Shown here in pieces: positions 25,801 to 48,200 of a stretch of 64,000 nucleotides of DNA. A program made the translations under genes and the position numbers. Numbering within the stretch: the first letter of the stretch is position 1; each line of letters begins with the position of its first letter. This DNA is from Owenia fusiformis (taxonomy: Eukaryota; Annelida; Polychaeta; Sabellida; Oweniidae), in the NCBI GenBank assembly GCA_903813345.2, contig CAIIXF020000003.1, positions 11,112,931-11,176,930 of the forward strand. The letters are read 5' to 3'. Below the pieces are notes generated by a model. It saw only the letters and a list, made by a program, of their open reading frames with translations, had not been told where the DNA came from and made no database searches.

Positions 25801-28800
25801 GATTTTCTCTCAGAAGGACGTAAGAATGTCACTCTTGGTAACATGCTTCACCAGGACAAGTTGGTGTTCTTTCTACATCTGCTAGGCATAGATACAAATG
25901 GCCACTCACACAAGCCTTATTCAAAGTGAGTTGATTCTTACAGTTTTAAGCCTGGTGATATCTGTCACAAGCTTGTGAATATATGTATTTGGCTGGTCAA
26001 GTGTACACCTCCCGCATCCCAGGATGGATGGATCTCAAATTCAACAAGTTGGCCAGGGGCAAAAATTCTTTTTCCCTGCAAAAGGCCCTTCTTGTACTAT
26101 TATCCACTTTTTGCATATTATTGCCCAGTTTTTACAGAAATTAAGGCCACTCAGATCTGGCATCACATACTATGTGGGGAGATATTGTCTCTCCTTCTGC
26201 TTGACTTAATATATTCCTGTCTGTCAGTTTTAACCAAAATTCTAAAATCCCTGTTTAGCACAACTATACTTCTCAGACAATTTTAATATTTTAATTTACT
26301 AATGAAAGATGAACTTGCTACAAATTATAAAACTGATCTTTCTAGGGAATATTTAGATAATATTCGGATAGTGGATTCTGGAATCCGAGAACTCACCTCC
26401 CTTATTGAAGAGTTCTATGAGCATGATGGAAGAACTGCATACATCATGTCAGCAGACCATGGCATGACAGACTGGGGTAAATGCACTTAATATTAAAGTA
26501 ATGCTCTGAAACTTTTTTCAACCAACTGAAAATTGTCAGTGAAAAATTGGAGATGCGACATTTTAGAAAATGAGAACTGGAAATGCCACTCTACTGCTAA
26601 AATATATGTCTTTCAATTTATAATTTTTGACACTACATGTATCTGATTTGGGATTGTATTAATTGTAGGTTCCCATGGCGCCAGTCACCCATCTGAAACC
26701 TTGACACCCCTTGTAGCTTGGGGGGCAGGGGTAAGAGGGCCAAATATGGGGGAAGATATTCAAGAGAAACAAGCATTCCGTGATACTTTCTCTCAAGGTA
26801 GGCATTACATTTTTAAACTAACATGGAATGGACTGTATACAATTTTGGTTTGGTTCAGATATTCGAAGTGTCAATATTATACATATTGGTTGGTCCAATT
26901 TTATCCTTTAAATATGCACACTAGTGTCTGTTTAAAATCATTTGAAATCTATAGCTCATTAAAAAATATTGCACATCTACAAATCTCTGATTTTGTAATC
27001 TAAAAAGATATTTTCAAGAAATTCCAATATCCAAGATTTGGTTCCATTTTTCTCATTTTAAACTACCGGTATCTTGTTCAAATATTATTCAAGGAAAATG
27101 CAACCAACTTGTGAACAGAAGGTTCCTTAATCTAACTTCATTTTTCCAGATTGGGACTTATCACATATATCAAGGAAGGACGTAGAGCAGGCAGATATTA
27201 CATCTTTGATGGCTGCCCTTATAGGCACGTCATTCCCTGTCAATTCTGTGGTATGTAGTCATAGTAACAAAGCACTCATTATGAAATTAAGAGCTTTGCT
27301 AGAAAAACCCAAAAAATGCTTATAGTTTATTTATTTTCCACCATTTTCTCTCAATTAAACCTTTTATTTTTGTCAAGTCGATTTTGTGACTGTTACTTTT
27401 TTTTTTGTAAAATAGTAATAACTCCAGGACTAATTTTAAAATGACTGAAAATTCTATACACCTATTGACATGTTATGGTGGTTTTAGGTAATGTCTTGTA
27501 AAATTGTAAACCTTTTCATTGATTTGGTCATTGTGGCATTGGTTAAAGGCAGAATCAGATCTATAGGGGTGACAAAGTTACAAGCAACATGTACACTTGA
27601 CCTACCAATAATCGATTCCTTACAATCTCAAAGACAATATCTCACAAAAGATTCATCATATGTTATAAATTGGTAAAGTTATTATAGATTCAAAGTGCAA
27701 AAATGGGTGAAAATAATAAGAATGGTAACCATTCTTATAGAAAATAATACATGATGGTAAAAATCTTAGTTTTCCTTGAATAAAGTTTGCACTTTTGTGA
27801 TTTTTAGAAAATAGACATGACAAGGAATGACATGAACCAGAAATATTCTAAAATTGAAATAATGTTTTTGTTTACCTGCCACTATAGTGCTGTCCCTAGG
27901 TCTGATTTCGTTACTCGGCTCGGAAAAAAGGTTTGTGGGTATCATTTTGTTCCAGACACTCTCTAGAATAAATTCATCTTGGGTGGAGTAAATATGTGTG
28001 GTAAACGAATTTGCTATGGGCAGTTAAAGAGGCGCCATCTATTCATTTTCAAACAGGGGGTAGGGGTATAAAATAATTTTTTAACACATTTTAATAGTAA
28101 AATGACATTGAAATACTAATAAAATCTTATCAAAAACATTATTTACAATCAGTACGAATTTTCTTGTGTGGCTTAGGGTGAAAATAAGGGCATATCTTGA
28201 AATTCACTACAGGGGTGCCACCTATTTTTGTACTTCTACCACATGTAATAACTTATTTTAGATTCGTTAAGGTACGAAATGTACTGAAAAAATTCATTCT
28301 GAAGGACCTATATATGTTCATACCACATACTTAAAATTAGATCAATAGCTTATGTACCGGCGGAGAAAAAAATTATTGAAATTTAAAATTATGTTATCAT
28401 GCAGGATAGGGGTGACCATATCTCACATTATTTACTTCCAAAATATGGAGCATATGTATCTCAAATGTGCTCAAAATGTTGTATGTACTCTTGCTATGTC
28501 ATAATATTACTAATAAGAAGTAGAAAAATGATTGTACATTTTAGAAATTATTAATTCTCATTTTGGCTTCTGACATCCCAGGGGTGACCATATCTCACCT
28601 TTATAACTTCCAAAATATGGAGCATATGTATCTCAAATGTGGTCAAAATGGTGTATGTACTCTTGCTTCGTCATAATATATGTAATAAGAAGTAAGAAAA
28701 TGATTGTACATTTAAAAAAATATTAATTCTCATTTTGGCTTCTGACGTCCCAGGGGTGACCATATGTCACCTTAATAACTTCCAAAATATTGAGCATATG

Positions 28801-31800
28801 TATCTCAAATGTGCTCAAAATGGTGTATGTACTCTTGCTTTGTCATAATATTAGTAATAAGAAGTAGAAAAATGATTGTACATTTTAGAAATTATTAATT
28901 CTCATTTTGGCTTTTGACGTCCCAGGGGTGACCATATCTCACATTAATAACTTCCAAAATATGGAGCATATGTATCTCAAATGTACTCAAAATGGTGTAT
29001 GTACTCTTGCTTTGTCATAATATTACACTAATAAGATGTAGGAATATGATTATACATTTAAAATTTTTTAATTTTACCTTCTTACGTTCCTTGGTAATCA
29101 TATTGCAACATATAATAATAATAATAACTTCTAAGATATGTAACATATACGCCTCAAATATTCTCAGAAAAGTCTTGTCTTTCATATTACTAATGAAATG
29201 TAGAAAAATGATTGCATTTTTAAAAAAAATTAATTTTAGCCTCTGGTGTCCCACCTTGATAACTCTCATGATATGCAACTTATGCATCTCAAATGTGTGC
29301 TCAAAATGGTATAAATATAGTCTTGTTTTGTCATATTTATTTAGAATCATAAAATCAACAGTTCAGAATCAATGGATTTTGACTGTCTTCTCTACAGCTA
29401 CATATAATTCAGGGCAAATAATATCTGCTTTCAAATATTTGCATCTGCTCCCCAAACACCCCTTACAGGTACAATGGATGAGATTATTCCCTTGCATAAT
29501 TACTTGGACCAAACATCTTTTGTAATCCATACAGGAATCCTTTTAGCCTATCAATAGTGGGAGTACTTTACTCCATTTATGAAGTAATGGCAAATGTTGA
29601 TAAGGTGTTAATATGTTATCCTGTGGCCTGCAATATATGCACCTTGGATCATACACTGAATTTAGGGATTTTGAGTAAGTAAAAAACGGGAAAAGGAGCT
29701 CTTTGTAATGATAAATCTTTCTAGCCACATTCTCTAGTTTTCATGTTTGTCATACAACATACATTGATTGTATTGAAATATTAATTTATGATTGTGATGT
29801 CCCGCACTTCTAGGGTCCCAGAGAAGAGCTTAGCTTTTGGAACACTTGCATTACTCTTGGCATGATAGGCCATACAGTGAATACAATTGTTGAGATGGGG
29901 CAAGAACAATATAGCACATTCGACAAAAGGCAACTTGAAAACCTAACAGTACCATTTGATAGAACCATATCCAGGAACAAAGTTCTTCAGTTTATTAGGC
30001 CTCCAAAACCTCCATTCATAACAGATTATGGAAAACTATAGTTCCTCCATTAAATTAAATTTTGAATGACCATGCCAAAAATTAGATCATTAACATGCTA
30101 AAACCCAACAGTGAAAATATGCAGAACGTGAACATAAATGATTGTGCAAATTAAGTAATATTTCTTCCCCACATATAAAACATAGAAATGGAACAAGGGA
30201 GAAGGTATATCATACTAATTCTCTTGTAAATTTCCTAAGATGTGCCAAGAACAAGAGTGATCTGTTTTCCTTCCAGACATCAAAACTTTATGCTAAAAAA
30301 CTGAAAGTGTCAATTTGGATTGCATACTGAAAGAGGAAATCTTATCAGTATCTACCTTCCCATGATATTATTGCAGAATATGGCCATGGCAAAACTTTAG
30401 CCCTTTCCTTATGCAATCATTGCATGTGATGCCATATCTGCATTCTAATACTGTTCTAAATCATCCGATTTCCGATCTGGATTTCTTCTGATACATGTAC
30501 CATAGAATGAGAAACGTTGCAGTTATAAAGTCATTTGTAATTCTGATATATGACAAAACATGCAAACTAGAGAATGTCAATCGGGATTAGAAGCAACTTA
30601 TCGCCCTTGTAATTTAGCAGTGGGACAGTTTGGTGTATGTTTGGGCATAAATGCGCCTTTAAGGCCTAATTTATCAGGATATTTTCAAAATTTCGGGTCA
30701 GATTTGGGGTTAAGGGGCCAATTTTGGTAAATGAGGCTAGGCTACTCACACTACTGATAGGCTACCAGTATACAAAAGATGTTGCATCCAAGGCATGCAA
30801 AAGACTTATCGTCCATTGTTTGGGGAGAAGATGCAAATATTTGAAAGTAGATCTTATTGTCTCTGGGCTATATGTAGCTGCATCCTTCAGGGGAGACAGT
30901 CAAATCCATAAATTCTGAACTTCTGATTTTATGAATCTCAATAAATATGACAAAACAAGACTATATTTATACCATTTTGGGCACGCATTTGAGATGCATA
31001 TGTTGCATACTGTGAGAGTTATATCAAGGTGAGATATAGTTGCCCCTGGGATGTCAGATTCGGAAGCTAAAATGAAAATTTCAATTCAAAAAAGGTGTAA
31101 TAATTTTTTCTACATCTCATGAATAATATTATGACAAAGCAAGACCATATGCCCCATTTTTGGTATATTTGAGTTGTATATGTTACATAATTTTAGAAGT
31201 TATTGAGGGACGTCAGAAGCTAAAATTAAAATTAACATTTTTTAAATGTATAATCATATTCCTACATCTTATTAGTATAATATTATGACAAAGCAAGAGT
31301 ACATACACCATTTTGAGTACATTTGAGATACATATGCTCCATATTTTGGAAGTTATTAAGGTGAGATATGGTCACCCCTGGGACGTCAGAAGCCAAAATG
31401 AGAATTAGTATTTTTTTAAATGTACAATCATTTTCCTACATCTTATTAGTAATATTATGACGATACAGGATTATATACACCATTTTGAGCACATTTGAGA
31501 TACATATGCTCCATATTTTGGAAATTATTAAGGTGAGATATGGTCACCCCTAGAACGTCAGAAGCTAAAATGAAAATTAATATTTTTAAAAATGTACAAT
31601 CATTTTCTTACATCTTATTAGTAATATTATGACTAGACAAGACTATAAACACCCTGGAACGTCAGAAGCTAAAATGAAAATTAATTTTTTTTAAAATGTA
31701 TCATCATTTTTCTACATATTATTAGTAATATTATGACAAGGCAAGACTATATACACCATTTTGAGCATATTTGAGATACATATGCTCCATATTTTGGAAG

Positions 31801-34800
31801 TTAATAATGTGAGATATGGTCACCCCCTATCCTGAATGATGCCACAATTTTAAATTTCAATAATTTTTTTCTCCGAAGGTATAAAAGCTATTGATCTAAT
31901 TTTAAGTATGTGGTATGAACATATATAGGTCCTTCAGAATGAATTTTTTCAGTTCATTTTGTACCTTAACGAATCTAAAATAAGTTATTACACGTGGTAG
32001 AAGTACGAAAATAGGTGGCGCCCCTGTAGTGAATTTCAAGATATGCCCTTTTTTTCACCCTAATACACACAAGAAAATTCATACTGATTGTAAATAATGT
32101 TTTTGATAAGATTTTATTAGTATTTCAATGTCATTTTACTATTAAAATGTGTTAAAAAATTATTTTATACCCCTACCCCCTGTTTGAAAATGAATAGATG
32201 GCGCCTCTTTAACTGCCCATAGCAAATTCGTTTACCACACATTTTTACTCCACCCAAGATGAATTTATTCTAGAGAGTGTCTGGAACAAAATGATACCCA
32301 CAAACCTTTTTTCCGAGCCGAGTAACGAAATCAGACCTAGGGACAGCACTACTAGATCTGATTCTCTCTTTAATAATCATCAAACTATTTTTGATTGTGT
32401 GATTGGTTTTCATTCTATTTTTAATCCCTCATTTGCAGGGTGTTCTTCCACTTGACTACATCAATGCTTCTGATGAGTTCAAAGCCCATGCAATCTTCAC
32501 CAATACTCAACAGATCCTTGCCCAACTTACTATTAAAATGGCAGAGAAACAAGAAACAACACTATCATGGCTCTTCAGACCATATAAGGCATTACCAGTA
32601 GACAATCAAATCCAATTTGTGAAATCAATTCAGAGGAAAATCCATGGAAAGGAATACAGAGAGGCAATTGAAGACTCTAGGGAATTAATTAAACTTGCCT
32701 TAGATGGACTTGAGTATTACCATGGTTATGATAGACTATTCCTTGGGGCAAGTATAGCTATGGGCTACCTAGGTTGGATAACGTACATATTGACAATCAT
32801 TATACAGGACTATACCAATATTGTTGCAACATCAAAAATTGCCCAATCTCAAGCAACATATCTGAGATCTGAAGAGGGGATTAGAACCATATTTGCAATT
32901 TTAGGTGCCATTGTGGCTTTTTTGCTTTATGTACAATCACTGCCTTGGACTCATTATATATACTGCTTACTTCCAATTATGCTTTGGAATGAAGCTTTAC
33001 TCAAAATCAATGTGATATCTCAAGTGAAAGAATCTATAGAGGGTGTTGGCAATCTCATGATGATTATCTTCAAAGTGTTCGTTGCTGTGGCTGGACTTGA
33101 AATAATTGTGCTCACTTTTTTTTATCGTGAACTTTTAACTCTTGGACTTGTTGCTATGGCAATATGGCCCATTATGACATCACTTAGAAGTAGCAACAAA
33201 ATGGTAGTAGTGTTTTGGAGTGTTTCCTGCTTATCTGTTGCTGTGTTTCCAATGCTTCCAGTGGTTGGCAGGGATACTGATTACCGACTAGTCTCGCTGG
33301 CGGGATGGACAATTCTGGCATTGGGTCTCTATGCATTCAGACAATTGAGTAAAAATGCGTTTTATAGCCCAATCAGATCAAATAAACTACATGTACTATT
33401 TTTTAGTCAGGTGAGTGTGTGCAAGCTGTTTATACATATGTAAAAATGTTTAACCTGTGTACTGTACAGTGTATATAAACAGCCACAAAACAGTAAATTT
33501 TCATAAAAATGTTGAGTATGAATAGGGCGAGTTATCATTAAATGGAAGTAGTGTGTTCAGTCAGTCAGCAGTTTAGTTCCTCGATAATTAACATGGATAT
33601 TTAGAATCTCTTGAATTTGTTCTCTATTTGCAGCTAGTCACTTTAGGTGTGGCGATACTCATCTTGAATTCAACCTCCTCCAGCATTGCAAGCAAACAAG
33701 GCCTTCCATTGCTCAACCAGGGCCTCAGCTGGCTAATTTTAGGTAAACATTGTCAGCTGGCTGATTCTAAGTAAACATTTTACAAGGGCTCCCATTGCTC
33801 AACCAGGGCCTCAGCTGGCTAATTTTAGGTAAACATTGTCAGCTGGCTGATTCTAAGTAAACATTTTACAAGGGCTCCCATTGCTCAACCAGGGTCTCCG
33901 CTGGCTGATTCTAAGTAAACATTTTACAAGGGCTCCCATTGCTCAACCAGGGTCTCCGCTGGCTGATTCTAAGTAAACATTTTACAAGGGCTCCCATTGC
34001 TCAACCAGGGTCTCCGCTGGCTGATTCTAAGTAAACATTTTACAAGGGCTCCCATTGCTCAACCAGGGTCTCCGCTGGCTGATTCTAAGTAAACATTTTA
34101 CAAGGGCTCCCATTGCTCAACCAGGGTCTCCGCTGGCTGATTCTAAGTAAACATTTTACAAGGGCTCCCATTGCTCAACCAGGGTCTCCGCTGGCTGATT
34201 CTAAGTAAACATTTTACAAGGGCTCCCATTGCTCAACCAGGGTCTCCGCTGGCTGATTCTAAGTAAACATTTTACAAGGGCTCCCATTGCTCAACCAGGG
34301 TCTCCGCTGGCTGATTCTAAGTAAACATTTTACAAGGGCTCCCATTGCTCAACCAGGGTCTCCGCTGGCTGATTCTAAGTAAACATTTTACAAGGGCTCC
34401 CATTGCTCAACCAGGGTCTCCGCTGGCTGATTCTAAGTAAACATTTTACAAGGGCTCCCATTGCTCAACCAGGGCCTCAGCTGGCTGATTGTTGGTATGG
34501 AATGTATCATTTCACTTATGTATATCATAGTAGCTAACTCCTTTAGAGTTATTTGGTCAAGAAATGCATGTTTGAAGATCACAAGATAGTGCATGTGGTT
34601 ATCAAACATTACCACAGGATGGGGATTACAACATTTGTTCATGAATCTATCTGAATTCGAAAGCAATTTCAAAATTATTGTTTCTTATAAAAATGTACAT
34701 AACCACTTTCTGTCAAAAACCTAATATTTTACTTGAATTGGTACCCATGTAAATAAAAGGCCTAATAATATAAGATGTATTTTCAGTGTTATCTGTGCTC

Positions 34801-37800
34801 CAGCCTCTATTAGGAAGTACACACATGGTTCCACGGCTACTCAGTCTAGGGGTGTCTCTCAGCGCCCCCTATATCCTACTCAGCATGTCGTATCCTTCAG
34901 TGCAACTTATACAAGTATAATGGTTTGGAAATAAAGTGGGGGAACAATAATGTCATGTGTAAGTGAAAGAGAGTAATTTTGAAGATGGGCACTGTTATTC
35001 TTTGTGATGTTTACATTCTATGCTACTGAAGATTGTTAACCTTGACATACTGTTGACCCCTCATGCTTTTGCTCATCAGGAACATCTTGGTTTAAAATAG
35101 ATGGAGACATTTTGTCTATGATTCAGTTGACAGGTGTATGTCGGCACTCTTGCCAATGTAATGTTTTCCTATGTTTCCTTAACTATGGCAGTCATGAGGC
35201 ACTGTTCTACTTGTCACTCTGCTGTTTGCTGTATGCCTGGCTACTAGTGGAATACAGCAATACATCACATACCATCAAGGTAGGTCATACTCTTCAACAT
35301 ATTTCATTCATGTACATGTATATACATGTACAGTTTATTTTCTCATTTCAATGAATTTATTTAAGCATCCTTGTTGATATAATCAAAACGTATGTAGAAT
35401 TTAGGTTATGTTTTTGAAACCATCTGCATTTTATATAAACTTTGAACTGAAACCTGCATTTTGATACTCTGTTCAATTTCTAGTATAGTCTGGGATGGTG
35501 TGTTGCCATAATATGTAATATGTGCAATTATTGTGTCCATGTATTTTAGGCCAATGAGCTAGACTTTAGCAAGGGCAGCGTGCTTGGAGAACCTACAAGA
35601 AATCTACACACAGCTGATCTCAGAGTGGCATATTTCTTTGTATCCTTAACACTGACATTTATTATTTTCATGATGTTATGTCCATGATCAGAAAGAACTA
35701 CATGTATTTAAAAAATGCTTCCGTATTTGGTAAGTGATATTATATAATATTTTTCAAATCATGGTTAATAAAATAACACCATCCTCCATTTTTCTTAACT
35801 GCTGCAGGTATTTTTCATTTTGACAGCATTTTTTGGAACAGGAAATATAGCCAGCATTAACAGCTTTGACCCAGTGTCCGTATACTGCTTCCTAACCATC
35901 TTTAACCCTTTCATTATGGGAGCACTCATGCTTTGGAAGGTGAGTAACATATCTATGTACTGCTTCCTTCCTTTCCCTATTGAACTGTTACTCCATTTTT
36001 TCCAAGAAAACCTGGTGCAATGTAATTTATTTTATTTTGGAGTAAAACAAAATTGTAATGGTCAAACGGTAGCACTTGAGGCCAAATTGAATTTCAATCA
36101 AAATTAAAGCAAAAACCAAATTAAATACAGGTAGTGCAAAAATAAATATTGTATTTTATATTCTTCAGATACATGTGAAAATCTTTTTGAATCAAATTGG
36201 GTATAGGTACAGAGGGTCTTTATGATAATGACCATCCTTCATCAACCGACAATCCTAGATAGCACATTCACATGTACATTCAGAGCTATACTTACATATC
36301 TAACATTGCATTGTTTCAGATTGTGATTCTATTCATCCTGGTCAGATGTATGTACATTCAGTGCTATACATATCTAAAATTGCATTGTTTCAGATTGTGA
36401 TTCTATTCATCCTGGTCACATATACATTCAGTGCTATACATATCTAACATTGCATTGTTTCAGATTGTGATTCTATTCATCCTGGTCACATATACATTCA
36501 GTGCTATACATATCTAACATTGCATTGTTTCAGATTGTGATTCCATTCAACCGGATCACATATTCAGTGCAATACATATCTAACATTGCATTGTTTCAGA
36601 TTGTGATTCTATTCATCCTGGTCACATATACATTCAGTGCTATACATATCTAACATTGCATTGTTTCAGATTGTGATTCTATTCATCCTGGTCACATGTA
36701 CATTCAGTGCTATACATATCTAACATTGCATTGTTTCAGATTGTGATTCTATTCATCCTGGTCACATGTACATTCAGTGCTATACATATCTAACATTGCA
36801 TTGTTTCAGATTGTGATTCTATTCATCCTGGTCACATATACATTCAGTGCTATACATATCTAACATTGCATTGTTTCAGATTGTGATTCTATTCATCCTG
36901 GTCACATGTATGTACATTCAGTGCTATACATATCTAACATTGCATTGTTTCAGATTGTGATTCTATTCATCCTGGTCACATGTACATTCAGTGCTATACA
37001 TATCTAACATTGCATTGTTTCAGATTGTGATTCTATTCACCCTGGTCACATATACATTCAATGCAATGCATATCTAATATTGCATTGTTTCAGATTGTGA
37101 TTCTATTCATCCTGGTCACATGTACATTCAGTGCTATACATATCTAACATTGCATTGTTTCAGATTGTGATTCTATTCATCCTGGTCACATGTACATTCA
37201 GTGCTATACATATCTAACATTGCATTGTTTCAGATTGTGATTCTATTCATCCTGGTCACATGTACATTCAGTGCTATACATATCTAACATTGCATTGTTT
37301 CAGATTGTGATTCTATTCATCCTGGTCACATGTACATTTAGTGCTATACATATCTAACATTGCATTGTTTCAGATTGTGATTCTATTCATCCTGGTCACA
37401 TGTACATTCAGTGCTATACATATCTAACATTGCATTGTTTCAGATTGTGATTCTATTCATCCTGGTCACATATATGTACATTCAGTGCTATACATATCTA
37501 ACATTGCATTGTTTCAGATTGTGATTCTATTCATCCTGGTCACATATACATTCAGTGCTATATATATCTAAAATTGCATTGTTTCAGATTGTGATTCTAT
37601 GCATCCTGGTCACATATACATTCAGTGCTATACATATCTAACATTGCATTGTTTCAGATTGTGATTCTATTCATCCTGGTCACATGTACATTCAGTGCTA
37701 TATATATCTAACATTGCATTGTTTCAGATTGTGATTCTATTCATCCTGGTCACATGTACATTCAGTGCTATACATATCTAACATTGCATTGTTTCAGATT

Positions 37801-40800
37801 GTGATTCTATGCATCCTGGTCACATATACATTCAGTGCTATACATATCTAACATTGCATTGTTTCAGATTGTGATTCTATTCATCCTGGTCACATATACA
37901 TTCAGTGCTATACATATTTAACATTGCATTGTTTCAGATTGTGATTCTATTCATCCTGGTCATATATTCAGCGCTATATATATCTAACATTGCACTGTTT
38001 CAGATTCTGATTCTATTAAACTGGTCACATATTCAGTGCTATACATATCTAACATTGCATAGTTTCAGATTCTGATTCTATTAAACTGGTCACATATTCA
38101 GTGCAATACATATCTAACATTGTATTGTTTCAGATTCTGATTCTATTAAACTGGTCACATATTCAGTGCAATACATATCTAACATTGCATTGTTTCAGAT
38201 TCTGATTCTATTAAACTGGTCACATATTCAGTGCAATACATATCTAACATTGTATTTTCAGTTTCAGATTGTGATTCTATGCATCCTGGTCACATATACA
38301 TTCAGTGCTATACATATATAACATTGCATTGTTTCAGATTGTGATTCTATTCATCCTGGTCACATTTACATTCAGTGCTATACATATCTAACATTGCATT
38401 GTTTCAGATTGTGATTCTATTCATCCTGGTCACATATACATTCAGTGCTATACATATCTAACATTGCATTGTTTCAGATTGTGATTCTATTCATCCTGGT
38501 CACATATACATTCAGTGCTATACATATCTAACATTGCATTGTTTCAGATTGTGATTCTATTCATCCTTGTCACATGTACATTCAGTGCTATACATATCTA
38601 ACATTGCATTGTTTCAGATTGTGATTCTATTCATCCTGGTCACATATACATTCAGTGCTATACATATCTAACATTGCATTGTTTCAGATTGTGATTCTAT
38701 TCATCCTGGTCAAATGTACATTCAGTGCTATACATATCTAACATTGCATTGTTTCAGATTGTGATTCTATTCATCCTGGTCACATATACATTCAGTGCTA
38801 TACATATCTAACATTGCATTGTTTCAGATTGTGATTCTATTCATCCTGGTCACATATACATTCAGTGCTATACAAATCTAACATTGCATTGTTTCAGAGT
38901 GTGATTCTATTCATCCTGGTCACATGTACATTCAGTGCTATATATATCTAACATTGCATTGTTTCAGATTGTGATTCTATTCATCCTGGTCACATATACA
39001 TTCAATGCAATACATATCTAACATTGCATTGTTTCAGATTGTGATTCTATTCATCCTGGTCACATGTACATTCAGTGCTATATATATCTAATATTGCATT
39101 GTTTCAGATTGTGATTCTATTCATCCTGGTCACATGTACATTCAGTACTATATATATCTAACATTGCATTGTTTCAGATTGTGATTCTATTCATCCTGGT
39201 CACATGTACATTCAGTGCTATACATATCTAACATTGCATTGTTTCAGATTGTGATTCTATTCATCCTGGTCACATATACATTCAATGCAATACATATCTA
39301 ATATTGCATTGTTTCAGATTGTGATTCTATTCATCCTGGTCACATATACATTCAATGCAATACATATCTAATATTGCATTGTTTCAGATTGTGATTCTAT
39401 TCATCCTGGTCACATATACATTCAGTGCTATACATATCTAACATTGCATTGTTTCAGATTGTGATTCTATTCATCCTGGTCAAATGTATGTACATTCAGT
39501 GCTATACATATCTAACATTGCATTGTTTCAGATTGTGATTCTATTCATCCTGGTCACATGTATGTACATTCAGTGCTATACATATCTAACATTGCATTGT
39601 TTCAGATTGTGATTCTATTCATCCTTGTCACATGTACATTCAGTGCTATACATATCTAACATTGCATTGTTTCAGATTGTGATTCTATTCATCCTGGTCA
39701 CATATACATTCAGTGCTATACATATCTAACATTGCATTGTTTCAGATTGTGATTCTATTCATCCTGGTCAAATGTACATTCAGTGCTATACATATCTAAC
39801 ATTGCATTGTTTCAGATTGTGATTCTATTCATCCTGGTCACATATACATTCAATGCAATACATATCTAACATTGCATTGTTTCAGATTGTGATTCTATTC
39901 ATCCTGGTCACATATACATTCAGTGCAATACATATCTAACATTGCATTGTTTCAGATTGTGATTCTATTCATCCTGGTCACATATACATTCAATGCAATA
40001 CATATCTAACATTGCATTGTTTCAGATTGTGATTCTATTCATCCTGGTCACATGTACATTCAGTGCTATATATATCTAATATTGCATTGTTTCAGATTGT
40101 GATTCTATTCATCCTGGTCACATGTACATTCAGTGCTATATATATCTAACATTGCATTGTTTCAGATTGTGATTCTATTCATCCTGGTCACATGTACATT
40201 CAGTGCTATACATATCTAACATTGCATTGTTTCAGATTGTGATTCTATTCATCCTGGTCACATGTATGTACATTCAGTGCTATACATATCTAACATTGCA
40301 TTGTTTCAGATTGTGATTCTATTCATCCTGGTCACATATACATTCAATGCAATACATATCTAATATTGCATTGTTTCAGATTGTGATTCTATTCATCCTG
40401 GTCACATATACATTCAATGCAATACATATCTAATATTGCATTGTTTCAGATTGTGATTCTATTCATCCTGGTCACATATACATTCAATGCAATACATATC
40501 TAATATTGCATTGTTTCAGATTGTGATTCTATTCATCCTGGTCACATATACATTCAATGCAATACATATCTAACATTGCATTGTTTCAGATTGTGATTCT
40601 ATTCATCCTGGTCACATGTATGTACATTCAGTGCTATACATATCTAACATTGCATTGTTTCAGATTGTGATTCTATTCATCCTGGTCACATATACATTCA
40701 ATGCAATACATATCTAATATTGCATTGTTTCAGATTGTGATTCTATTCATCCTGGTCACATGTACATTCAGTGCTATACATATCTAACATTGCATTGTTT

Positions 40801-43504
40801 CAGATTGTGATTCTATTCATCCTGGTCACATATACATTCAATGCAATACATATCTAACATTGCATTGTTTCAGATTGTGATTCTATTCATCCTGGTCACA
40901 TGTACATTCAGTGCTATACATATCTAACATTGCATTGTTTCAGATTGTGATTCTATTCATCCTGGTCACATGTATGTACATTCAGTGCTATACATATCTA
41001 ATATTGCATTGTTTCAGATTGTGATTCTATTCATCCTGGTCACATGTACATTCAGTGCTATACATATCTAACATTGCATTGTTTCAGATTGTGATTCTAT
41101 TCATCCTGGTCACATGTACATTCAGTGCAATACATATCTAACATTGCATTGTTTCAGATTGTGATTCTATTCATCCTGGTCACATGTACATTCAGTGCTA
41201 TATATATCTAATATTGCATTGTTTCAGATTGTGATTCTATTCATCCTGGTCACATGTACATTCAGTGCTATATATATCTAACATTGCATTGTTTCAGATT
41301 GTGATTCTATTCATCCTGGTCACATGTACATTCAGTGCTATACATATCTAATATTGCATTGTTTCAGATTGTGATTCTATTCATCCTGGTCACATGTATG
41401 TACATTCAGTGCTATACATATCTAACATTGCATTGTTTCAGATTGTGATTCTATTCATCCTGGTCACATATACATTCAGCGCTATACATATCTAATATTG
41501 CATTGTTTCAGATTGTGATTCTATTCATCCTGGTCAAATGTACATTCAGTGCTATACATATCTAATATTGCATTGTTTCAGATTGTGATTCTATTCATCC
41601 TGGTCACATGTACATTCAGTGCTATACATATCTAACATTGCATTGTTTCAGATTGTGATTCTATTCATCCTGGTCACATATACATTCAGTGCTATACATA
41701 TCTAACATTGCATTGTTTCAGATTGTGATTCTATTCATCCTGGTCACATGTATGTACATTCAGTGCTATACATATCTAACATTGCATTGTTTCAGATTGT
41801 GATTCTATTCATCCTGGTCACATATACATTCAATGCAATACATATCTAATATTGCATTGTTTCAGATTGTGATTCTATTCATCCTGGTCACATATACATT
41901 CAATGCAATACATATCTAATATTGCATTGTTTCAGATTGTGATTCTATTCATCCTGGTCACATATACATTCAATGCAATACATATCTAATATTGCATTGT
42001 TTCAGATTGTGATTCTATTCATCCTGGTCACATATACATTCAATGCAATACATATCTAACATTGCATTGTTTCAGATTGTGATTCTATTCATCCTGGTCA
42101 CATGTATGTACATTCAGTGCTATACATATCTAACATTGCATTGTTTCAGATTGTGATTCTATTCATCCTGGTCACATATACATTCAATGCAATACATATC
42201 TAACATTGCATTGTTTCAGATTGTGATTCTATTCATCCTGGTCACATGTACATTCAGTGCTATACATATCTAACATTGCATTGTTTCAGATTGTGATTCT
42301 ATTCATCCTGGTCAAATGTACATTCAGTGCTATACATATCTAATATTGCATTGTTTCAGATTGTGATTCTATTCATCCTGGTCACATGTACATTCAGTGC
42401 TATACATATCTAACATTGCATTGTTTCAGATTGTGATTCTATGCATCCTGGTCACATATACATTCAGTGCAATACATATCTAACATTGCATTGTTTCAGA
42501 TTGTGATTCTATTCATCCTGGTCACATGTACATTCAGTGCTATACATATCTAACATTGCATTGTTTCAGATTGTGATTCTATTCATCCTGGTCACATATA
42601 CATTCAATGCAATACATATCTAACATTGCATTGTTTCAGATTGTGATTCTATTCATACTGGTCACATGTACATTCAGTGCAATATATATCTAACATTGCA
42701 TTGTTTCAGATTGTGATTCTATGCATCCTGGTCACATGTACATTCAGTGCTATACATATCTAACATTTCATTGTTTCAGATTGTGATTCTATGCATCCTG
42801 GTCACATATACATTCAGTGCTATACATATCTAACATTGCATTGTTTCAGATTGTGATTCTATTCATACTGGTCACATGTACATTCAGCGCTATACATGTC
42901 ATCCTCAATGTGCCAACCAAGAGCCTATTTATGGTGGTCCTTCTCATGTCAGACTTCATGGCACTGGTAAGATATACAGTAACATTGTCAATTAAGTCAA
43001 CATATGCTTTAGGCTCTTCTTGGTAGCTCCCTTGATACCAGGTATCAATTTTAAAATCAAAATGTCAACACTTTCCAGGGAGAGTGTAACTCATGAGTTG
43101 ATTGATATTCATATTCAATGCTAGATGACATTAAAACAAGACATGGATATTGAAATAAGTAAAGGCCTGAACTGCCGTCATTTGGCCTATTAATGTCATG
43201 GTGACATCCTATTTTAATTAAATACACACTTTACATGTATGTGTGTATCTTTATACATGCACTGTATATCCCCTCTAAATTCTTATCATTGTACACATAG
43301 TTCAACTCGCACATTTTTTACTTTCAGCACTTCTTTTTCCTGGTTCGTGATTCTGGGAGTTGGTTAGAGATTGGCACAAGTATCAGCCATTATGTGATCG
43401 TCATGACAATGATTATATTTCTCATGTTGTTACTTGGAATAGCAAAGGTGTTCACAACATTCCAATTTACATGCACTTCAAGGAGGAAATCTCATTTTCA
43501 ATAA
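22855..43504 (+). CDS. PIGN: GPI ethanolamine phosphate transferase 1, complete, 16 exons
   Basis: It adds ethanolamine phosphate to the first mannose of the GPI anchor precursor in the ER. Exons: 22855..23078, 23433..23554, 23699..23797, 25181..25287, 25801..25925, 26346..26476, 26669..26797, 27150..27250, 32439..33410, 33634..33742, 34787..34886, 35192..35279, 35550..35639, 35808..35939, 42850..42966, 43328..43504. They total 2,823 nt or 940 residues (human 931). Residues 3-25 form the N-terminal membrane anchor. The lumenal alkaline-phosphatase-like domain keeps the metal and active-site residues: Asp53 (VADGLRAD), Thr93 ([10 protein letters not shown]), Asp215 and His219 (GIDTNGHSH), Asp263-His264 ([10 protein letters not shown]) and His276. 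The multi-span C-terminal part keeps [16 protein letters not shown] and ends RRKSHFQ. The junction 34886/35192 uses a weak GTCGTA donor; 34899/35199 is an in-frame alternative two residues longer. Confidence 0.96.
24520..24926. mobile_element. Diverged foldback element in a PIGN intron
   Basis: The left arm AAGCCCAAGACTCC...GTGGAATACTCATTCC pairs with the right arm GGAATGAGCATTC (minus strand)...CCAGGGCTT. An inner pair (GCATCCTCC and GGAGGATGTT) continues the palindrome. TTAA lies at both edges, hinting at a TTAA-target superfamily. Confidence 0.55.
28411..29010. repeat. ~180-bp tandem repeats in the left arm of the foldback element
   Basis: Three to four copies of a unit with GGGGTGACCATATCTCAC, AACTTCCAAAATATGGAGC and TGTATGTACTCTTGCT lie in tandem. 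Mirror copies lie in the right arm (about 31,230-31,830). Confidence 0.8.
29813..30041 (+). pseudogene. Unidentified coding-like segment inside the foldback element
   Basis: An open stretch of about 75 codons ending at 30041 follows an acceptor-like CTTCTAG. It has a protein-like composition (for example [18 protein letters not shown] and FIRPPKPPF). I do not recognise the family. It may be the remnant of a protein once encoded by the transposable element. Mirrored Cys-containing stretches near 29,430-29,520 (minus) and 30,740-30,915 (plus) may belong to the same protein. Confidence 0.3.
32439..33410 (+). CDS. PIGN: Unusually long PIGN exon (972 nt)
   Basis: This single open exon encodes 324 residues, from [14 protein letters not shown] through to LHVLFFSQ. 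It covers the region after the catalytic domain and the first group of the C-terminal membrane spans. The other PIGN exons here are 88-224 nt, and the corresponding human region is cut by several introns. Splice borders are normal (TTTGCAG before, GTGAGT after), so this is a working exon in place, not a retrocopy. Confidence 0.93.
33700..34490 (+). repeat. 58-bp minisatellite made of a PIGN exon end plus 5' splice site, 12 copies
   Basis: The exon at 33634..33742 ends ...CATTGCTCAACCAGGG, CTCAGCTGGCTAATTTTAG, then intronic GTAAACATT. Downstream, twelve tandem copies repeat CCATTGCTCAACCAGGG(T/C)CT, GCTGGCTGATTCTAA and GTAAACATTTTACAAGGGCT. Two extra short pieces (GTAAACATTGTCAGCTGGCT) occur near the start. 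About ten units are almost identical, so amplification is recent. Each copy keeps a plausible donor (CTAA|GTAAAC). The last ends at GATTGTTGGTATGG. Confidence 0.95.
36262..42849 (+). repeat. ~70-bp satellite-like array made of a PIGN 3' splice site plus exon start, ~93 copies
   Basis: The true exon at 42850..42966 begins ATTGTGATTCTATTCATACT and continues GGTCACATGTACATTCAGCG. It is preceded by CTAACATTGCATTGTTTCAG. The same block repeats head to tail through 6.5 kb upstream. Each unit has the CTAAC branch-point-like motif, the TTGTTTCAG acceptor and the first ~47 nt of the exon, then goes straight into the next copy. Variants include CACATATACATTCAATGCAA, a +4 form with CATGTATGTACATT, and shorter units with TTCTGATTCTATTAAACTGG near 37,990-38,260. 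Typical 70-bp units read in the PIGN frame hit TAA after about 17 codons. Only the last copy runs into the full exon. Confidence 0.97.
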
Positions 43505-45244: not shown

Positions 45245-48200
45245 CTAGTGACAATTATTACAATTAGGATGGCACTGTTGCCCAGCAACCCTGCATCTGC
45301 AGCCTCCACTTATATCTCCTGATCCCTGAAACATTATGGAAATGAACTACATATCCTCGTCATATTATGGAAATGAACTACATATCCTCTTCATATTTGT
45401 CAGTAATAATTAGTTTTTTGTGAGTATGCTTATCCAACTTTTAAAAATTGAAAACAAATTAAAATCCGAACAATAGTACTTAATGAAATAAGAGTACTAC
45501 GATTGCTATGCTAAGTAAAGAATTCTAATTTGACTATTTTACACAACTTACCCTGGCATATTTCTTACACAACTCGCCCCGGTCCCCCCCCCCCTTGGAC
45601 TAGTCACCCAGCACATTTAAGGTTTGACATTCCTATCAGTGATATGAACTACTCTGCAAAATATTAGCTTCGAACTCCAATGGACTTTCAGGAATCTCTA
45701 AAATTGCTCAAAACTTTTGAGCAATTCAGAGGTTCCTGAAAGTCTAACCAGCAAATCTTAGAACCCTGATTCGAAGATACCTAAAAGCCTTACCAATAAA
45801 GCTAGAAGCCTGATATTGCACATACCTAACAACCATATTACCACCTCATGTTGTGTGAACTAACTTTGGATATTGAGCTATACTTTCTGAATTATCAGGA
45901 CACAAAGTGGGCATTCTGTACCAGTGACAGGGGGTTGACTGAAAACAAATCGTGGTGGGGGAGGTCTAAACTTTGATTAATTTCAGTAAAATTGTACCAG
46001 GAGACTTGTACCAACCTGGGTCATGAAAATGTGATTTTGACCCATACTTTCAGATTTTAAGACAATTCCAAAAAGGAGGCCATTGGAGTTCGAAGCTAAT
46101 ATTTTGCAGAATAGCTCACATCACTGATAGGAATGAAACCCCAAATGTACTAAATGATCGGGATCTATGTTCCTATCTATTACACACCACACCAGAATTT
46201 ACCCAATTGCATACTGTATTTTGTGAAACATCTAATATCAGCCTTGATTATGTTTTTTCCTTTTGGTTTATATATGAACAGTTATGAATGAGTGAATTTA
46301 GTCACCCGACATATCTCTGTCTTACACAACTTACCCCTGGTCCACATCTACGGCATTTAGTCACCTAGCATATCTCTGTCTTACACAACTTACCCCTGGT
46401 CCCCATCTACAGCCTTTAGTCACCTAGCATATCTCTGTCTTACACAACTTTCCCCTAGTCCCCATCTAGGGCCTTTAGTTACCCAGCATATCTCTGTCTT
46501 ACACAACTTACCCCTGGTCCCCATCTACGGCCTTTAGTCACCTAGCATATCTCTGTCTTACACAACTTACCCCTGGTCCCCATCTACAGCCTTTAGTCAC
46601 CTAGCATATCTCTGTCTTACACAACTTACCCCTGGTCCACATCTACGGCATTTAGTCACCTAGCATATCTCTGTCTTACACAACTTACCCCTGGTCCCCA
46701 TCTACAGCCTTTAGTCACCTAGCATATCTCTGTCTTACACAACTTTCCCCTAGTCCCCATCTAGGGCCTTTAGTTACCCAGCATATCTCTGTCTTACACA
46801 ACTTACCCCTGGTCCCCATCTACGGCCTTTAGTCACCTAGCATATCTCTGTCTTACACAATTTACCCCTGGTCCCCATCTAGGGCCTTTAGTCACCCAAC
46901 ATATCTCTGTCTTACACAACTTACCCCTGGTCCCCATCTTGGGCCTTTAGTCACCTAGCATATCTCTGTCTTACACAACTTACCCCTGGTCCCCATCTTG
47001 GGCCTTTAGTCACCCAGCATATCTCTGTCTTACACAACTTACCCCTGGTCCCCATCTTGGGCCTTTAGTCACCTAGCATATCTCTGTCTTACACAACTTA
47101 CCCCTGGTCCCCATCTTGGGCCTTTAGTCACCAAGCATATCTCTGTCTTACACAAATTACCCCTGGTCCCCATCTAGGGCCTTTAGTTACCCAGCATATC
47201 TCTGTCTTACACAACTTACCCCTGGTCCCCATCTAGGGCCTTTAGTCACCCAGCATATCTCTGTCTTACACATGGAGCATTTTATCCAGTCACATCCATC
47301 TTTCTTCAGGACTACAATCTTGCAGGAAGGGCAGTACATGGCCTCACCAGATGTTATCATATCCTGGAATATTGAGAAAACATTTACCTATTTACATTTA
47401 CACCATGTGACAACCAGCCATATACCCATTAATTTTGTAAATTCATTCAAAGTAAACTAAATGAGCCAACTGCTGCAAAAGTAATGCCAGTAAGACAAAG
47501 GCTAGCCATACTAACCCTCTAGTTTTACACATACCCAGTATTGCACATTATTTCAATAGACCCACATGGATAAACTGCCCTAAAGTTTCTATAACTCTTG
47601 TTAGTGAATGGTGGCCCTGGTTATTTTTTCGCTTGCCAAACGAGCACAAAGTCAAGTTAAATGTTTTAAAACATATCTGACAATTGGAACTTGTATTTTC
47701 AAATTATTTTTATAAAAATATTGGCCAGAGATATGAAATTTGTTTTGCGGGACTCCAATTTGTGATAAAGAGTTCAGGTGGTAATTTATATAAATATCTC
47801 CATGATGCATCGCTTTTGAAGGAACAAATTTTCATTGGCCCAACAAACGAGTCGATTACTCTGAACGCAACGTCTGGAGATTGCAGAGTCAAAGGTTACG
47901 ATCTGTTAATTTCATTGGTCGATGAGTACATCATAACATATGTATAGCATCAAAATTTCAACAAATTCTGATAAAACTAGCGTGAATCTTGACAAAATGA
48001 CATTTTCTCAGCTTCCGATCTTCCATCAGCCCCCAAGCATAGTTATATGATCCAATCTATTCAATAATCATATATTCGTATTGGAGTATTAAATGAGATG
48101 CACCAAGAAGGGATGCTACCAATTTCTGGTATTTCTATGACATTTGACTTGCAGATTCATTTCTTTTACTTAACAAATTCAATTCCTCCCCAGTCGTTGC

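Follow-up and report, generated by a model that had tools for sequence, protein, structure and literature searches.

How is the right acceptor of an exon found when the 5' border of that exon, splice signals included, has been copied 94 times over in the intron before it? The question is raised by PIGN in the annelid Owenia fusiformis, a gene contained in a stretch of 64,000 nucleotides (assembly GCA_903813345.2, contig CAIIXF020000003.1, positions 11,112,931 to 11,176,930 of the forward strand), which is referred to here as the window and in whose numbering coordinates are given. A first-pass annotation of the window had reported an array of acceptors inside PIGN and proposed that it acts as a length-dependent brake on the output of the gene. 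In lancelets, tandem repeats that extend across an intron-exon or exon-intron border have been called "mirages"; most copies carry splice signals, the real copy belongs to the gene, and concerted evolution is described (PMC3087553, PMC3902484). Judged by its sequence, the PIGN array (36268-42849) is a mirage minisatellite, very long and in another phylum than the lancelets, and it is one of several border arrays in the Owenia genome. We argue that it is probably tolerated rather than useful.

Structure of the array and gene model of PIGN

Positions 36268-42897 form one tandem array with a period of 70, 94.4 copies, 95% matches, and a score of 11455 (TRF). The decoys occupy its acceptor-side part upstream of the real exon (36268..42849, plus strand; TRF and tiling), which ends where the first-pass annotation had placed its end. 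Each 70-nt unit spans the exon-intron border and comprises 22 nt of the intron end, with CTAAC and TTGTTTCAG, and 48 nt of the exon start; in the typical unit order, the 48 nt of exon start come first, followed by the last 22 intron nucleotides, ATCTAACATTGCATTGTTTCAG. The make-up given in the annotation, acceptor region plus exon start, is thus correct except for the exon part, which had been put at about 47 nt. Tiling at the acceptors is gapless: 76 units are 70 nt long and 11 are 74 nt, and the remainder measure 65 nt (three), 66 nt (two), and 63 nt (one), besides a single 6-nt spacing. TTTCAG acceptors number 95, namely the real one at 42850 and 94 decoys, all of which (94/94) have this signal, so that the earlier description as an array of acceptors holds while its count of about 93 does not; the AG is retained in every unit of the tiling. 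Two AGs stand 6 nt apart at one place only (38262/38268), in an aberrant copy (38199..38267, plus strand; identified by tiling) with exon starts at both positions, which closes a run of shortened units starting at 37938.

The copies had also been described as indistinguishable from the true acceptor. Over positions -20 to +3 this is the case for 65 of the 94 decoys, and all 65 occurrences in the 498-Mb assembly of a 31-mer surrounding the acceptor fall inside the PIGN array; overall it is not, given that the array holds 38 distinct unit sequences, the 6-nt one included. The authentic copy is the one at the 3' edge and the other copies are intronic: at 42850, the exon part does not stop at nucleotide 48 but continues to the end of a 117-nt exon, in agreement with the proposal that only the last copy leads into the whole exon.

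The identity of the gene is borne out by a 16-exon model that is open for 944 aa, in which no clean GT donor was found at the junction of exons 11 and 12. Among its exons, all on the plus strand, are exon 10 (33634..33742; real donor AG|gtaaac at 33743), exon 14 of this model (35808..35939; donor gtgagt at 35940), exon 15 (42850..42966; 117 nt, phase 0-0, donor gtaaga at 42967), and the last exon, with the stop codon (43328..43504). Exons 14 and 15 match Pfam PigN columns 362-407 and 407-445, respectively, and because these join end to end across the junction, 42850 is the real border. A profile search of the 498-Mb assembly with PF04987 gave three matches, all at this gene. The protein is 53% identical to Branchiostoma PIGN and, in a tree of 33 PIGN rows that was given no part in the species assignment, groups beside Lingula, molluscs, and two unnamed rows at an open fork; the large PIGN exon has no relative among solved structures. 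The species (Annelida, Oweniidae) is confirmed by the neighboring gene WWOX, whose assembled minus-strand exons show 100% identity over 412 aa with a protein of Owenia fusiformis; together with the 53% for Branchiostoma PIGN, this argues against a lancelet origin.

Two observations on the locus are added here. Two arrays of a 172-nt unit in PIGN intron 8 (28408-29073 and 31207-31757) appear, by eye, to be reverse complements of each other. Furthermore, Owenia PIGN is absent among the best 120 matches of two protein searches in which candidates were capped in number and limited by length, although the adjacent WWOX has an annotated protein that it matches in full. The absence from these 120 matches is a lead, short of proof, that PIGN as annotated is broken or short, and suggests that gene prediction may fail where border arrays break gene models; the published Owenia annotation discarded models with in-frame stops or overlap with repeats (PMC9977687).

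Splice-site strength and the outcome of decoy use

Acceptors were scored with a weight matrix built from the 23 other acceptors of the window and compared by leave-one-out. The real acceptor is weak, with a score of 3.97 that exceeds only two of the 23 other local acceptors, and by the last 12 intron nucleotides alone it is less extreme, exceeding four of 23. With the earlier of two matrices, 92 of the 94 decoys score as high as the real acceptor or higher, so upstream sequence cannot single out 42850; given that the decoys share this sequence, whatever selects 42850 is probably located downstream of it. Acceptor recognition is known to lean on the downstream exon and its donor (exon definition), and the acceptor and donor scores together fit a weak acceptor that would depend on both. 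Two GT sites that are common in the units are weak donors (2.6 and 0.8), whereas the donor of exon 15 scores 8.1. Donors of fair strength do occur within the array, as (A/C/G)ATGTATGT at ten places: these score 7.1-7.4 with the earlier of the two matrices, and CATGTATGT scores 6.7 with the later one, above eight of 23 real donors. NAGNAG tandem acceptors, which lie 3 nt apart, were not found among the acceptors of the array, where the spacing is 63-74 nt and once 6 nt.

The reading frame entered from a decoy runs into a stop in 94 of 94 cases, after 17 codons in 76 decoys, 26 in 11, 23 in three, and 19, 39, 40, and 45, one each, in the last four. For these 76, translation would end at the TAA inside the CTAAC of the following copy; the 70-nt unit thus carries its own stop, as the annotation had predicted in stating that an earlier acceptor would meet TAA after about 17 codons. 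Skipping of exon 15 would keep the frame because the exon is 117 nt long and of phase 0-0. The open frame of 944 aa suggests that enough correct PIGN mRNA is made. Three consensus units showed nothing unusual in predicted RNA structure compared with shuffled sequences (z=-0.12).

Turnover of the array

The 70-mers have a mean likeness of 96.4%, and their arrangement bears the marks of concerted evolution within the array: a block of six unit types occurs twice (shuffled mean 2.7, maximum 6 of 1000), and neighboring copies differ at 2.1 places versus 2.3-2.75 for distant copies, a modest effect. One copy type differs from the first 48 nt of the real exon at two places, both synonymous. Place 29 of the 70-mers holds A in 39, G in 36, and T in one, and A for G would change Cys to Tyr. 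This variation among units is ordinary minisatellite turnover. For selection on the decoy acceptors, the test was negative, the longest invariant run being 12 columns (P=0.38). The acceptor core (-9..+9) holds only one of 21 variants (P=0.015), a scarcity that could mean selection; the region was picked post hoc, and we therefore do not take this value as evidence of function.

Further arrays at exon borders

The window contains two more border arrays, both on the donor side of their exons. The first (33696..34490, plus strand, 58-nt unit; TRF and site count) covers the end of PIGN exon 10 and has 14 gtaaac sites, that is, the real one (33743, in the first copy) and 13 decoys, with AG before the GT in one of the 13 and AA in the other 12. 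The second (46297..47272, minus strand, 59-nt unit; TRF and site count) has 16 donor places, the real one (47219, the first) and 15 copies, two of which have lost the GT; the exon that bears it (47360-47220, minus strand) is presumably RBCK1-like, a name that we take from a human sequence together with a below-cut-off IBR match.

Outside the window, a screen of 25 loci of 10 kb each at fixed positions yielded 32 arrays (27 + 5), two of which are border arrays, and misses are likely because open frames at array edges were read by eye. At locus L015 (4717-5761, minus strand), a 119-nt unit, 99% alike by TRF, covers the end of a C2H2 zinc-finger exon with its donor gtaagt, which is present at nine of nine places. 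At L034 (3356-3597, minus strand; 70 nt x 3.5), an apparent acceptor-side array, whose border was set by eye, belongs to a chitin-binding (CBM_14) exon, and one copy has a changed acceptor. Two other candidates were rejected: at L020 (3422-5065, minus strand), a tandem 285-nt array holds six copies of a whole thrombospondin type 1 (TSP1) exon, an ordinary exon duplication, and the array at L025 is an ordinary coding repeat.

Altogether, there are five border arrays in 314 kb, three in the window and two in 250 kb elsewhere, and 2 per 250 kb, extrapolated to the whole genome, gives a few thousand, with a very wide error. Within the window, 3 of 14 arrays lie at exon borders versus 0.85 expected (P=0.047), a bias that is weak given that few RBCK1 borders were counted and that the array was the reason for picking the window. 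A broader proposal would be that border arrays are common and fast-changing in Owenia and that their length tunes gene output through skipping or decoys, in PIGN as elsewhere. We regard this as unlikely; if it were true, array length would be a heritable dial on many Owenia genes.

Origin of the array and choice of the real acceptor

We consider it probable that the array arose by tandem growth of a minisatellite over the PIGN border and is tolerated, close to neutral. A short unit spanning the intron-exon border would have grown in tandem by repeated local duplication and homogenization, and only the copy at the 3' edge, having kept its connection to the complete exon and the donor beyond, would make a productive exon. 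The spliceosome would mostly pass over the decoys, a weak acceptor needing a downstream exon and donor that are within reach of the last few copies only, and leaks to the nearest decoys would carry a stop and be removed by mRNA decay; the proposed tolerance follows from this dependence of acceptor choice on the downstream exon and donor. Kin arrays elsewhere in the Owenia genome speak for such a history, as do those in lancelets, where RT-PCR suggested normal splicing. Several points count against it. The fair donors in the array could allow some pseudo-exons to form; first-come splicing during transcription would favor the decoys, which are made first; the scarcity of variants in the acceptor core, even if the region was chosen post hoc, could reflect selection; and the real acceptor is less extreme when only its core 12 nt are scored. 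The PIGN intron is thus a good natural test of acceptor choice, setting exon definition against first-come splicing.

The array might instead lower PIGN output through skipping of exon 15, the more so the longer it is, and without any use of decoys. The phase of the exon and its weak acceptor would permit this, and there is a precedent in human ABCA7, where a longer VNTR in intron 18 goes with more skipping of the in-frame, 132-nt exon 19 and with lower expression (PMC5954066). The ABCA7 unit, however, bears a donor and not an acceptor, and we consider this effect in PIGN improbable.

The brake proposed in the first-pass annotation differs in that the decoys themselves would compete with the real acceptor, so that more PIGN transcripts would be lost to decay as the array lengthens, and the dose of the gene would be set in this way. 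It draws on the letter identity of 65 decoys at the site, on the stop that follows all 94, and on the loss of the AG in no unit. Retention of the AG, however, fits recent homogenization without selection, and 200 kb of Owenia DNA from elsewhere already contain, on a single strand, 4.4 AGs per kb that score as well as the real acceptor, a density that the array raises only about threefold. The tests described above do not establish selection on the acceptor core, the 944-aa frame is open, and lancelet arrays are reported as harmless to splicing (PMC3087553, PMC3902484). The brake is unproven and unneeded, and we rate it as quite unlikely.

An error of assembly, with few units in the animal, is very unlikely. 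Long arrays are easily mis-sized, and one lancelet mirage is reported to have been misassembled in a genome draft (PMC3087553); the PIGN array, however, consists of 38 unit types and shortened subfamilies rather than clean duplicates, and the published Owenia PacBio reads, with an N50 of 25.75-30.75 kb (PMC9977687), are longer than the array, an argument that holds if the assembly used (498.3 Mb, 525 contigs) derives from the published one (505.8 Mb). A role of the copies in stepwise (recursive) splicing, or as alternative or poison exons, which their regular acceptors with branch-site-like motifs might suggest, is scarcely credible, given that GT directly follows the AG in none of the 95 acceptors, that fair donor-like sites occur at only ten places in the array rather than a good donor in every copy, and that each decoy reads into a stop.

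Comparison with known systems

Our search of the full-text literature, which covered few subscription papers, found the name "mirage" for lancelets only, no annelid border array among the matches listed, and no paper on minisatellites in Owenia. The lancelet Adh (Adh3) mirage was reportedly described by Canestro in 2002. The PIGN array extends the mirages to an annelid and far exceeds the lancelet cases compared in its number of copies.

Earthworm metallothionein introns contain minisatellites, and the part of that source consulted mentions no repeats at borders (PMC12783039). In human genes within segmental duplications, internal tandem repeats at exon-intron boundaries account for 27 intron modifications (PMC2812944); they resemble the PIGN array as minisatellite growth over a border, but average four units of 30 bp and often create new introns, of which PIGN has no sign. 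The ABCA7 VNTR is likewise long and intronic, with a splice site in the unit and an in-frame exon adjoining, but its unit is 25 bp and donor-bearing, and its effects on skipping and expression have been measured; retention of one repeat unit was unchanged with VNTR length (PMC5954066).

The closest resemblance is to the lancelet mirages. According to PMC3087553, two haplotypes of BflGb6 carry 6 and 3 units of 150-160 bp over the acceptor border, BflGb9 has a donor-side mirage, and RT-PCR suggested undisturbed splicing; PMC3902484 adds similar repeats in PGBD5 and cites the Adh and TnC cases, and allelic and somatic length change is reported (PMC3087553, PMC3902484). The evidence from lancelets thus includes RT-PCR and alleles, whereas the PIGN array is known from the sequence of one assembly, and, unlike BflGb6, it belongs to an annelid and has 94 decoys in units of 70 nt. 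With Adh3, BflGb6, BflGb9, TnC, and PGBD5, it shares a unit that spans the border, decoys with splice signals, and homogenized copies.
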